Positions 22,818 through 26,535 of a DNA stretch of 48,188 nucleotides are shown piece after piece. Within the stretch, counting starts at the first letter, position 1. Every line of letters starts with the position of its first letter. The notes beneath the pieces were generated by a model. That model did not search any database. It had not been told where the DNA came from and worked only from the letters and a program-made list of their open reading frames with translations. The position numbers were made by a program, and so were the translations under genes. The DNA comes from Acidobacteriaceae bacterium (lineage in GTDB: Bacteria; Acidobacteriota; Terriglobia; Terriglobales; Acidobacteriaceae). The stretch lies in the NCBI GenBank assembly GCA_003138975.1, contig PLHQ01000209.1:87022-135209 (forward strand). The letters run 5' to 3'.

Positions 22818-25355
22818 CTACAAAGCTTCTACCGCACCCTGTAGCTCCCGTGTGATTTGCGCGGGATCCCTTCCGGCTGCAAATCGCAGCGGCTGGCCGA
22901 TGCGGACTCCAATCTTCCACGGTCGAGCAAACTTTCTGCCACTTTGCTTCACTTCAAACAATCCCACAATTCTCATCGGCAGTACAGGAATATCCAAATT
23001 ATTCGCCAGAAGCCCAATCCCCGCACGAAACGAATTCATCTTGCCATCAACCGTATGTCGTCCCTCGGGAAACACCAGCACGCTGTATCCGCGATCCACG
23101 GCCTGACCCGCATAAGCAAAGCTCTGCCGGAAGCCGGCTTCGCGCGGCAGAGGAAACAAGTTCAGCAGAGAAACTCCCAGCACCCATTGCATGCGATCGT
23201 GGATTCTTCCGACGAATCCTCTGCTGGGAGCGGGCGTGTGCAATGCTTCCATCGCCTCGCCCCCAGCCGCAGTCGCGATTCGGTTCCGCAGCCGTGCCGG
23301 TAATGCCGTCTGCACGAACCCCACATCCACGTCAGCAATATGATTGCAGACCACCAACAGCGGCCCGTTCCAGCCTCGCAAATGTTCCCGTCCTTCGATC
23401 CGTGGCCAGCCCAGCAGCAGCATGGCCGGCCTCATTAGCAAATAATGCGCTAGCCATCGCACCCACGGCATCGGCCACCGCAATACCCAACCCGGATAGT
23501 GATACTCCACGCGCTGCCGCACCTCACCCTGCAACATCCTTTCCACGTCGCCCACCGTACGCGCCGCGCTAAAACGAGTCTCGCTCAGGTCCACTTGATA
23601 TCGATCCTCCAGCGCGCCAATCAATTCCACGCGGTCCAGCGAACTGAGTCCAAGATCGGAATCGAGCGCCGATTCAGCATTGAGCCCGGTGACGCTGCGC
23701 CCCGCAATGCGGCCAATCAACTCCGTCACGGGACTGTCACTCGCGGCGTCATGGGCCCCGGCATGCAGAATTTGTGTGGCCGCGAATTCCGCAATCATGT
23801 TCCGCCGGGGCTTCTGCGTGCTGGTGCGCGGAAAATCTTCTTGCGGCCACTGCACCCACGTCCGCATACGCTGGAATTCCCCCAGAGACTGATTCGCACG
23901 TTCCACCACTTCTTCCGCGCGGGCATCGGCGCGCAGGATCAGCACTGCGCACGGCTCTGCATTTCCCCCACGCTCAATCCCCACCACCACGCAATCTTTC
24001 ACTTCCGGCTGGCGCCGCAACGCCGCCTCCAAATCTTCGGGATAGATATTGAGCCCACCCGGCGTCACGATCACTTCTTTCTTGCGCCCTTTGAAATAAA
24101 GGTTCCCGGCTTCATCCAGTGCGCCCACGTCTCCGGTGCGATACCAACCTTTTTCGTCGGCGACTCCTTCCGCGTGACCCGCTCCCCAATACCCCGCCGC
24201 CACTCCGCCCCCGCGGATCAAGATCTCCCCATCTTCCGCCAGCTTCACTTCTCGCCCCGGCAATACTTTCCCGATCGATCCTTTCCCCAACTTGAACGGA
24301 TGGTTCACACTAATCAGCGAGGTCGTTTCCGTCAGCCCATATCCCTGGATCGCGGCATAACCCAGCCGTCCCCAGAATTCTTCCGTCTCAGCATCCAGCG
24401 CCGCGCCCCCGGAAATAAACGCCCAGAACTTCCATCCGAACTGCCGGTGAATCGCGCGAAAAATCCACCATCGGTGCAGAAAGTGCTTTCCTTCCGACGC
24501 GCGGAACCGCCGCCGAAAATGTTCGATTTCCCCGTCATCCTCCAGATCGCGTTCGATCTTCTGCTTGAGCGACTGCAAAACTCTCGGCACACTCACCAGC
24601 ACCGAAACTCGCTCCCGCCGGATTGTGCGCACGATCTCCGATGGCTTCAGCTCTTCCTGAAAAATCACTGTCCCGCCCAGCAGCTGCGGCAAGAACATCC
24701 CGAGAAATTGCCCGAAGACATGGCTTAGCGGCAACAGATTCAGAAACCGCACAGGATGTACCCAGCGCTCATACTTCAAATAGCGCTGCATCTCTTGCTC
24801 TAGCGGATCAATGTTGGCCAGCACGTTGCCATGGGTGATGACCACACCCTTGGGTTCAGCCGTTGTCCCGGAGGTAAACACAATTTGCAGCACATCTTCG
24901 CGGGTGGTTATGTTCGCGGTTGGCTTTGCGGAATGCTGCCCGAGCTCCTTCGACAGATCTTCAAGAACCAACACGGGGATTGTCGCGGCAGCGCCGTCCA
25001 AGAGTTCAGCCGAACGGCTCCGGGAACACACCCAAAGCCTAGCCTCAACCTGTCGTGAAACTCGCGCAGCAAAATCGGCGGAGGCGCCATTATCCATCGG
25101 GACCACAACAACGCCGCACAGCGCGCATCCAAAGAATGCCGCAACCCACTCCGCGCAGTTCTCGCCCCACAGCATCATCCGGTCGCCCTTGCCAATCCCA
25201 CGCGCTTCCAACTCCCGACAAAACCGAAACGCCATCTCCATAACCTGCCCGTACGTGAACCATTCCATGCGGTACCCACGATGCTGCCCGTAGGCACGCT
25301 CATCGCAGTGCGCCTGAAAGTTCGTTAAGAAAAACTGTGCTAAAGATTCAGCCAT
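22818..25355 (-). CDS. AMP-binding, acyl carrier and PlsC acyltransferase fusion protein
   Basis: Three-domain lipid enzyme. Residues about 1-515 are an acyl-activating (AMP-forming) domain: the P-loop-like TSGTTAEPKGVVITHGN, QGYGLTETTS, and YRTGDVGALDEAGNLYFKGR. Residues about 535-610 are a carrier domain with the phosphopantetheine Ser in DLGLSSLDRVELIG. Residues about 640-845 are a PlsC-type acyltransferase with NHIADVD (the H-x4-D motif) and FPEGRHT. A likely route is fatty acid activation, loading on the internal carrier, and transfer to a lysophospholipid or glycerol phosphate. The ATG at 25355 is chosen, though a TTG at 25388 is in frame with a better upstream purine run. E. coli Aas has the same two enzymes in the opposite order and no carrier between them. 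Confidence 0.88.
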   Translation of the reverse strand: MAESLAQFFLTNFQAHCDERAYGQHRGYRMEWFTYGQVMEMAFRFCRELEARGIGKGDRMMLWGENCAEWVAAFFGCALCGVVVVPMDNGASADFAARVSRQVEARLWVCSRSRSAELLDGAAATIPVLVLEDLSKELGQHSAKPTANITTREDVLQIVFTSGTTAEPKGVVITHGNVLANIDPLEQEMQRYLKYERWVHPVRFLNLLPLSHVFGQFLGMFLPQLLGGTVIFQEELKPSEIVRTIRRERVSVLVSVPRVLQSLKQKIERDLEDDGEIEHFRRRFRASEGKHFLHRWWIFRAIHRQFGWKFWAFISGGAALDAETEEFWGRLGYAAIQGYGLTETTSLISVNHPFKLGKGSIGKVLPGREVKLAEDGEILIRGGGVAAGYWGAGHAEGVADEKGWYRTGDVGALDEAGNLYFKGRKKEVIVTPGGLNIYPEDLEAALRRQPEVKDCVVVGIERGGNAEPCAVLILRADARAEEVVERANQSLGEFQRMRTWVQWPQEDFPRTSTQKPRRNMIAEFAATQILHAGAHDAASDSPVTELIGRIAGRSVTGLNAESALDSDLGLSSLDRVELIGALEDRYQVDLSETRFSAARTVGDVERMLQGEVRQRVEYHYPGWVLRWPMPWVRWLAHYLLMRPAMLLLGWPRIEGREHLRGWNGPLLVVCNHIADVDVGFVQTALPARLRNRIATAAGGEAMEALHTPAPSRGFVGRIHDRMQWVLGVSLLNLFPLPREAGFRQSFAYAGQAVDRGYSVLVFPEGRHTVDGKMNSFRAGIGLLANNLDIPVLPMRIVGLFEVKQSGRKFARPWKIGVRIGQPLRFAAGRDPAQITRELQGAVEAL

Positions 25356-25455
25356 GGAGTGAAGAGTGGAGGTGGCAGAGAAATACAACTGAAGCCTTGC
25401 CTCTTGGCAAGTTTAGTAGCAGAAGGGGACAAGCGCACATGCACCGGGTAGATTC

Positions 25456-25929
25456 TTAAGAGAGGATGCTTGCGCGGCACTTCGGACATCGGCCGCTCAC
25501 ATTTATGAAGCCTCTCGGCTCATGAAGAGGCTTATGACAATGGGGACACATGAATCCCTGTTCTTCGCACATGACCCTATCGTGCTGAAAGATTCGATGG
25601 AGCACGTAAATCTCGGCTAAGCCAACAGCGAACAGAGCTACGAATGCGGCCACGTGAGGGTGTGATGGTGAGGGAACACGCACAAGAACTCGGAAAAGCA
25701 TGTACAAGGTAGCGAATAAGACGAGCAACATCGTCCCCACGAGTTGGTTATGCCTTTTCGCGATTGCGACGCGTTTTGACTCCCACTCGGCAGGAAGGAT
25801 CGATTTTGTCTTGCCCAAGTAGTTCCCGGTGGGAAGCTGATAAAACACTACGACTAGCAAAAGAAGAAACGCACCGCCGAAGTACTTATCCCTGCTCGCT
25901 ACCGTCAGACAAGGAAAGAAGCAATTCAT
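25456..25929 (-). CDS. Hypothetical membrane protein with C-terminal zinc ribbon
   Basis: Not recognised. The ATG at 25929 gives 157 residues (a TTG at 25956 is an alternative). Two to three membrane segments are seen (GGAFLLLLVVVFYQL, LVGTMLLVLFATLYMLFRVLV and VAAFVALFAVGLAEIYVLH), followed by a Cys pair CPHC and a second pair CPKC 25 or so residues later, a zinc-ribbon arrangement. The last residues are RASILS. No clear ribosome binding site is visible. It lies between the acyl-activating fusion gene and the selenoprotein gene, all on the minus strand, but gaps of 40-100 bases give no proof of an operon. Confidence 0.6.
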   Translation of the reverse strand: MNCFFPCLTVASRDKYFGGAFLLLLVVVFYQLPTGNYLGKTKSILPAEWESKRVAIAKRHNQLVGTMLLVLFATLYMLFRVLVRVPSPSHPHVAAFVALFAVGLAEIYVLHRIFQHDRVMCEEQGFMCPHCHKPLHEPRGFINVSGRCPKCRASILS

Positions 25930-25968
25930 CTGGGCGATATTATCAGCGAGCACCAACTTCTAGAACCT

Positions 25969-26535
25969 TCACTCCCTCCCCACCCCCAACGCATCCGCCA
26001 CCCGATTGATGTAGTTAAACCACGAAGCGATCAGCGTGATCTGCAATATCCCGCGATCGTCAAATCCCACGGCGCGCAGCCCCTCGATATCGTCCTTCCA
26101 AACCTTGGTCGCGTCCTTGGTCAACTTGACCACATAATCCAACATCACCCGCTCCTGCGGCGTGATGGGCGCGGTCGTGTAGTCCTTTTCCAGCGCCTCC
26201 ACCAGCTCCCCGTCCAACGTCACCCTACGCAGAAACTCTGCATGCGACTCGATTCAATACTTGCACCGGTTGGTCACCGAGACCATCGTGGTAATCATTT
26301 CGTGCTGCCGCCGGCTCAACGGCAACTCCGGCGACATCAGCGCCCCAAACGTGCTGAACGCGTGGTAGAGCGCCTGCGGGATCAGTGTGTGCGACCCCAC
26401 AATCGACGACCCTCCCGACTCATCCGGGTGCACTGGATCGCCATACTCCTTGGGATACAACGACCGCTGCGCCTCCATCGCATGGCGCAGCTTTTCATCA
26501 GCTCCCGACAACGGTATGGTTTTAATCCAAGTCAT
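25969..26535 (-). CDS. Selenocysteine-containing AhpD-like (carboxymuconolactone decarboxylase family) peroxidase-related protein
   Basis: Predicted thiol/selenol peroxidase-related enzyme of 188 residues, decoded through an in-frame TGA at 26256-26254 (residue 94). On both sides of the TGA the reading is one continuous protein in the same frame. The motif around it is NRC(91)KYU(94)IESH(98), which overlays the C-x-x-C-x-x-x-H of mycobacterial AhpD (C130, C133, H137), with the Sec in the place of C133. E79 lies 15 residues before it, as E118 does in AhpD. The end, [13 protein letters not shown], is typical of the peroxidase-related subfamily. The ATG at 26535 has GAGGGG upstream. Just after the UGA is a SECIS-like hairpin. 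If the TGA is not read as Sec, this is two fragments of 93 and about 84 residues. The Sec machinery (selA-D) is not in the window. Confidence 0.82.
26227..26256 (-). promoter_or_regulatory. UGA codon with SECIS-like hairpin
   Basis: After the UGA (26256-26254) the mRNA can fold AUGCAGA (26243-26237) against UCUGCGU (26233-26227), a 7-bp stem with one G-U pair, closing a GUU loop. The first loop base is G, and it lies 18 nt after the UGA. That is the spacing and loop base expected for bacterial SECIS elements, and close to that in E. coli fdhF. GUC and GAC just outside can extend the stem. Confidence 0.65.

Follow-up and report, generated by a model that had tools for sequence, protein, structure and literature searches.

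A putative AhpD-like selenoprotein gene with a conserved in-frame TGA codon and a SECIS-like hairpin in an Acidobacteriaceae genome

AhpD-like proteins with a CxxU motif (COG2128) were reported as a selenoprotein family from the Sargasso Sea in 2005 (PMC1088965) and appear again in a table of 2022 (PMC9312934); AhpD-like proteins of TIGR01926 with CxxU are listed in the table of a 2026 selenoproteome review (PMC13188914). As regards Acidobacteria, a table of 2006 gives three selenoprotein families and four selenoproteins for the phylum, and the deep-Sep study (2025) gives three known selenoproteins for Occallatibacter riparius. In the accessible portions of the open-licence literature, nothing was found on the acidobacterial clade described below or on the gene order selD–selA–selB–ahpD. 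This kind of selenoprotein is already known, and the gene analyzed here is, judging from its sequence, a further member of it. The original prediction that such a form is easily missed stood as far as gene callers are concerned, which break the frame; as regards the literature it did not, the AhpD-like CxxU family being already catalogued.

The window, i.e., the whole stretch of DNA that was analyzed, is 48,188 nt in length and belongs to an Acidobacteriaceae bacterium. With the standard code, its minus strand contained an upstream frame of 93 aa (26254..26535), and 3′ of the TGA there were ten sense codons and then GTG (codon 105), opening a frame of 84 residues. The proposal that these two minus-strand frames (93 and about 84 residues) are a single one was borne out by translation: only the TGA and the ten sense codons lie between them, and the joined protein has 188 residues with no other internal stop. 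The following features were assigned to the gene and its active-site codons.

25969..26535, minus strand: whole putative AhpD-like selenoprotein gene (translation, TIGR01926, PF02627, and full-length relatives)
26254..26256, minus strand: in-frame TGA, codon 94, at the last position of CxxU (TGA in 110/110 clade-1 sequences; Cys in distant homologs)
26263..26265, minus strand: codon of Cys91, the predicted resolving thiol of C-x-x-U (C91 in 62/62 aligned Sec rows)

The window frame (26535..25969) consisted of 188 sense or selenocysteine codons and a terminal stop, which is TGA too; codon 94 (26256–26254) was the sole internal TGA. The motif and its spacings, as originally predicted, were read in the translation of the joined protein: E79 is followed by C91-K-Y-U94-I-E-S-H98 at spacings of 12, 3, and 4, which we take to be equal to those of E118, C130, C133, and H137 in AhpD of Mycobacterium tuberculosis.

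The window protein was compared with family profiles and structures, U being written as C in the family profile searches. It passed the thresholds of TIGR01926, “peroxidase-related enzyme” (112.2 bits against a cut-off of 81.8), TIGR00778, the AhpD core domain (35.7 against 27.8 bits), and the Pfam family PF02627, CMD (34.7 bits against a gathering score of 23); passing PF02627 and TIGR01926 upheld its earlier assignment to the CMD/AhpD type. It scored below the cut-offs of AhpD proper, TIGR00777 (16.5 against 191.95 bits), of NF041238, AhpD_rel_CFYUT (50.2 against 175 bits), and of NF053654, YciW-related (seleno)protein (32.4 against 310 bits). The best sequence matches among solved proteins were 2pfx, 3c1l, 2oyo, 6k40, and 2prr (E 6e-23 to 5e-17), and position 94 was occupied by Cys in 2pfx, 3c1l, and 2oyo, the three alignments inspected. 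The AlphaFold model of the protein was moderate (mean pLDDT 67.3, pTM 0.63). Foldseek with this model returned the same solved structures (E 8e-8 to ~4e-6, TM ~0.65), debrominase Bmp8 (6ohi/6ohj; E 6e-4 to 9e-4), and, as a weak fold match, M. tuberculosis AhpD (1gu9, 1knc; E 0.045–0.16). The nearest solved relatives are peroxidase-related or AhpD-like proteins.

Relatives of the window gene were sought across the order (397 genomes). In 63 genomes (own included), a relative of full or nearly full length was present; these relatives were 63–91% identical, the own copy excepted, and contained exactly one internal TGA each. Partial or broken copies were found in five further genomes of the 397. 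Fragmented copies of the window gene with the TGA retained were observed in loci L156, L157, and L158 (genomes G117, G118, and G174), and selA was present in these genomes. From a second search, that of genome contigs, the best 80 of 260 relatives were taken; their records are labelled Acidobacteriota, Gemmatimonadota, Latescibacterota, and KSB1, the spread beyond Acidobacteriota being that of the contigs’ record titles, where labels of metagenome-assembled genomes may be wrong. Codon 94 was TGA in 109/109 loci from both searches (L032–L140; 72–91% identical, some duplicates). With the window added, TGA was found in 110/110 sequences, 86 of which were distinct over the region compared. Identity in full-length alignment with the relatives was 59–91%.

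The phylum was searched in 396 genomes at E ≤ 1e-25. Among the matches listed, 30 were 59–99% identical (own included), 29 of them with one TGA and one stop-free; 29 more, also among the matches listed, were 37–48% identical and had one TGA each. Codon 94 was TGA in 26 of the 28 phylum-wide loci (L160–L187). The remaining two were L187 (43% identical, sister clade), which escaped the motif pattern and whose longer copy, L218, reads U, and L186 (59–60% identical), which reads N-R-T-R-Y-C-S-L-S-H, i.e., has Thr at position 91 and Cys (TGC) at position 94. Cys94 was found in all 20 stop-free distant homologs taken from the order (L198–L217), a chosen subset of the stop-free matches among the order matches listed. 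Alignment across the TGA, by which the original prediction was to be checked, gave TGA in the close homologs and Cys in the more distant ones; Cys94 of the distant homologs and the printed structure alignments place the TGA at the second active-site Cys, as had been claimed. At positions 79, 91, 94, and 98, 62 of the 83 aligned rows had E-C-U-H, 16 had E-C-C-H, four had E-S-C-H, and one, L186, had E-T-C-H; the E / C-x-x-C(U) / H catalytic layout of an AhpD-type peroxidase was found in 62/62 Sec rows.

Distribution of Sec and Cys over the tree took four changes, at least three of which are forced by the starred branches, while shuffled labels gave an average of 18.9. The clade of the window comprised 36 Sec forms and one Cys form with a support of 100/99, and was separate from the Sec clade adjoining selB in other genomes of the family. 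L186 was located inside the Sec clade, its exact place being unsure; because of this position, it is most simply regarded as a Sec-to-Cys reversion.

Behind the TGA, the following RNA features were predicted.

26227..26243, minus strand: apical hairpin, predicted SECIS, with a 7-bp stem AUGCAGA/UCUGCGU and the loop GUU at 26236–26234 (fold, codon entropy)
26215..26251, minus strand: predicted lower stem, in which CGAGUCGC pairs with GUGAC and UUG, with a 3-nt bulge AGG (minimum-energy structure, weakly supported)

According to the available text of the 2026 review (PMC13188914), the model of the bacterial SECIS has a loop of 3–9 nt, a stem of 4–16 bp, a distance of 16–37 nt from the UGA, G within the first two nucleotides of the loop, usually with G or U next to it, and a minimum free energy (MFE) of −7.5 or lower. 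The features found here agree with the model as given there: a GUU loop beginning after 17 nt from the UGA, a stem of 7 bp, and an MFE of the 45 nt past the UGA of −8.0 or lower in 109/109 distinct sequences. The hairpin is located inside 26200–26260, the stretch in which the original prediction would have a SECIS sought. The MFE structure of the window had −14.2 kcal/mol, and its apical stem by itself −6.4 kcal/mol. Compared with shuffles, the folding energy was unexceptional (z = −1.15; 25 of 200 shuffles fold as well); among random synonymous recodings, 580 of 20,000 (2.9%) also keep the 7-bp stem. Since the folding energy was non-significant, the SECIS argument rests on the conservation of synonymous codons instead.

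Synonymous codon entropy was scored over the 86 distinct sequences. For codons 98–103 (CAC GCA GAG TTT CTG CGT) it was 0.16, 0.09, 0, 0, 0, and 0.27 bit, respectively, compared with 2.4 bit for R104 and 1.47–2.05 bit for other conserved Leu codons; the lowest values elsewhere among degenerate codons were 0.28 (Y175) and 0.37 (Y93). Read as RNA, codons 98–103 give the stem ACGCAGA-GUU-UCUGCGU; the window has AUGCAGA, the pair being kept as U-G. The GUU loop was present in all 136 Sec sequences, selected by a motif pattern that includes U and HAEF, with 7/7 pairs in 129 and 6/7 pairs in seven of them. The stem hardly varies within clade 1, so it provides no proof by compensatory changes there, and the stems found in sister clades are different ones. 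The Cys form L186 reads CACACGGAGTTCCTGACG at this place and has lost the stem. The case for this predicted SECIS consists of synonymous conservation and analogy.

The source genome (5.45 Mb, 98.58% complete, 3.08% contamination) contained selA (535.4 bits, frame neighbours included, against a cut-off of 267.9), selB (380.9 against 242.25 bits), and selD (367.9 against 125 bits). A tRNA-Sec was found with a score of 67.9 (Rfam gathering score 47), and the same tRNA was called tRNA-SeC with the anticodon TCA by ARAGORN. The selenocysteine genes that the original prediction would have in this genome (selA, selB, selD, and tRNA-Sec (TCA)) were all found, and by this gene complement the source genome can make selenocysteine.

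A second CMD/AhpD gene with an in-frame TGA and a GCPFU motif was located elsewhere in the source genome (C60:55818-56408; L009, 1327-1917, plus strand). The best NCBIfam match of its protein was NF053654 (132.4 bits, below the cut-off of 310). This paralog was kept in 13 of 45 genomes of the genus (own included) with at least 67% identity and one TGA each; its hairpin, TCTGCC-GTG-GGCAGA, was present in the minimum-energy fold of six of eight sequences. On contig C70 (8000-11500; L196), a frame for a molybdopterin oxidoreductase contained a single in-frame TGA, within ARVUHGPTV, a stretch that presumably resembles Sec formate dehydrogenases; the frame probably encodes an enzyme of this kind. 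Right next to selB, on the opposite strand, is a CMD protein of the Cys type (CRYCTQHH; C30:13004-18438; L007/L012).

At E ≤ 1e-80, selA was present in 172 of the 397 order genomes: in 60 of the 63 with the full gene versus 112 of the 334 others, five of which have partial copies (Fisher p 1.7e-21, kinship ignored and genome identifiers transcribed manually). The three exceptions at this threshold were G393, with a split selA over the cut-off, and G212 and G356, gene-bearing genomes in which no selA over the cut-off was found; SelB was over the cut-off in all three. SelB was tested in 33 genomes and was over the cut-off in 30; below it were G409, G613, and G634. In G409, the genome of the Cys form L186 (99% complete), we failed to find SelB over the cut-off (the best match, of 182.5 bits, was a 403-aa frame, probably EF-Tu) or selA even at 1e-5, selA having been sought in seven of the 33 genomes. 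G613 (Sec form, 90% complete) had the gene and selA and no SelB over the cut-off; G634 (sister clade, 72% complete) had a partial SelB match and no selA at 1e-5. Missing sel genes in gene-bearing genomes were assumed to be draft gaps. The sole Cys form found, L186, is also without the partner Cys, and in its near-complete genome neither selA nor selB was detected.

The sister Sec clade has the motif C-P-Y-U-x-D-S-H (CPYULDSH), which was read in 15 loci; two members matched TIGR01926 with 95.7 and 112.2 bits, and a protein of this clade is also carried by G096. In the ten loci picked for a nearby selA (L141–L150), the order selD–selA–selB–ahpD(Sec) on one strand was observed in 10/10; selA was found by its motif in eight and mapped by genome search in the other two. 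In L143, selD, selA, selB, and TIGR01926 were all over the NCBIfam cut-offs, and the other nine loci were read by motifs. No sel gene motif was seen in the other five of the 15 loci, which were chosen without selA nearby. A 7-bp stem, CTTCCTG/CAGGGAG, with G at loop position 2 is possible in 15/15 loci; in L143, the one sequence folded, the minimum-energy fold had not this stem but another and longer hairpin whose loop has 11 nt. To judge from the gene order, the client may travel together with the machinery that decodes it.

Because of the one conserved frame, the Sec machinery, the TGA/Cys pairing, and the frozen SECIS-like hairpin, we conclude that the two frames most probably form a single, intact gene that encodes an AhpD-like selenoprotein, the TGA being read as Sec (probability about 0.93). 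A nonsense pseudogene, or an assembly or base-call error, with the TGA as a premature stop, would be consistent with the frame being broken under translation table 11, and gene decay seems to occur elsewhere, in the fragmented copies of G117, G118, and G174. Against this, the same TGA recurs throughout the relatives L032–L140 (109/109), the codons after it are under protein constraint (e.g., 160–184), and codons 98–103 are under an additional constraint at the RNA level. The recurrence of this TGA in many separately assembled genomes with titles of several phyla makes an assembly error very unlikely. With the TGA shared across relatives and the downstream part constrained, the pseudogene and the sequencing error were rejected as extremely improbable.

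Decoding of the TGA in another way, by near-cognate read-through as Trp or Cys or in programmed regulation, would make the full-length protein a minor product. Against this, TGA also terminates the window gene, and position 94 pairs with the Cys of homologs. Moreover, the Sec set of the genome is complete, two of its other genes (C60 and C70) likewise have an in-frame TGA and are of known kinds of selenoprotein, and the SECIS-like hairpin is frozen, yet gone in the sole Cys form. On the Cys pairing, the Sec set, and the frozen hairpin, alternative decoding was rejected as well, being very improbable.

With codon 94 read as Sec, the proposed chemistry is modelled on that of AhpD. The hairpin behind the UGA would guide SelB, which would deliver Sec-tRNA(Sec) to codon 94. 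Sec94 would attack the hydroperoxide in place of Cys133 of M. tuberculosis AhpD, the E79...H98 relay may activate or polarise it, and Cys91 would resolve it as a selenenylsulfide; the active site would then be recycled by a dithiol reductant.

Gene neighbourhoods were compared over 49 loci. An AMP-binding synthetase-like ORF lay downstream on the same strand at varying distance in 28 of them (window included), and a TPR ORF on the opposite strand in 15. In the window, the downstream ORF (22818-25388, minus strand) had AMP-binding, PP-binding, and acyltransferase parts. Between it and the selenoprotein gene was a 166-aa ORF (25456-25956, minus strand) with CPHC...CPKC pairs near its C-terminus, for which neither a Pfam match nor a relative among the 49 loci was found. 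A search of the 49 loci for a tight functional operon around the window gene found none.

Regarding function, peroxide reduction is probably the main role of the protein, as far as homology indicates. The E79, C91, U94, and H98 of all 62 Sec rows stand at the AhpD spacing, as would be expected for a peroxide-reducing site, and this argues against a selenoprotein with another main role, such as a Sec-dependent thiol/disulfide oxidoreductase or another redox reaction of the CMD fold. Such a role, which we consider rather unlikely, would be in line with the naming of TIGR01926 only as “peroxidase-related”, with the score for TIGR00777 (16.5 against 191.95 bits), with the fold match to Bmp8, a CMD-fold enzyme of different chemistry, and with the AMP-binding synthetase-like ORF in 28/49 loci, which hints at lipid or acyl chemistry.

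A broader proposal would be a Sec-locked peroxidase lineage in Acidobacteriota and in contigs labelled Gemmatimonadota, Latescibacterota, and KSB1, with a sister Sec clade behind selD–selA–selB in a set of Terriglobales-like genomes; we see the chances for and against it as evenly balanced. If true, AhpD-like peroxidases would be a main reason why soil Acidobacteriota keep selenocysteine, and Sec coding could be transferred along with its client by the gene cluster. Two findings are apparently new: the near-exclusive occurrence of the Sec form across a broad range of taxa and the order selD–selA–selB–ahpD(Sec) in the sister clade; the frozen SECIS-like hairpin and the informative Cys form are also fresh. 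Because gene callers split such genes, estimates of selenium use in this phylum, which is common in soil, are probably too low. With its strict Sec form, its frozen hairpin, and its co-occurrence with the Sec machinery, the gene is a clean system for the question of why some enzymes seldom revert to cysteine, and the Cys form that occurs naturally in a genome where neither selA nor selB was detected is a ready comparison.

Like the catalogued COG2128/TIGR01926 CxxU family, as described in the available parts of the sources, the window protein has Sec as the last residue of CxxU, a hairpin behind the UGA, and Cys homologs. The window clade differs from that family, as described there, in its occurrence in soil Acidobacteriota and neighbours and in its near-invariant predicted SECIS; it is a distinct clade with a conserved N-terminal part (MTWI...LYP.EY..PVHP), the catalogued proteins being compared by their descriptions only. 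NF041238 and NF053654 are likewise CMD-family models with “(seleno)protein” in their NCBI names, with the window protein far below their cut-offs. The solved proteins 2pfx, 3c1l, 2oyo, 6k40, and 2prr, several of which are named uncharacterized, are its top matches in sequence and fold and have Cys, as read in the three alignments inspected, where the window protein would have Sec. In comparison with M. tuberculosis AhpD, Sec would replace the second Cys of the active site, and the score for TIGR00777 sets the window protein apart from AhpD proper.
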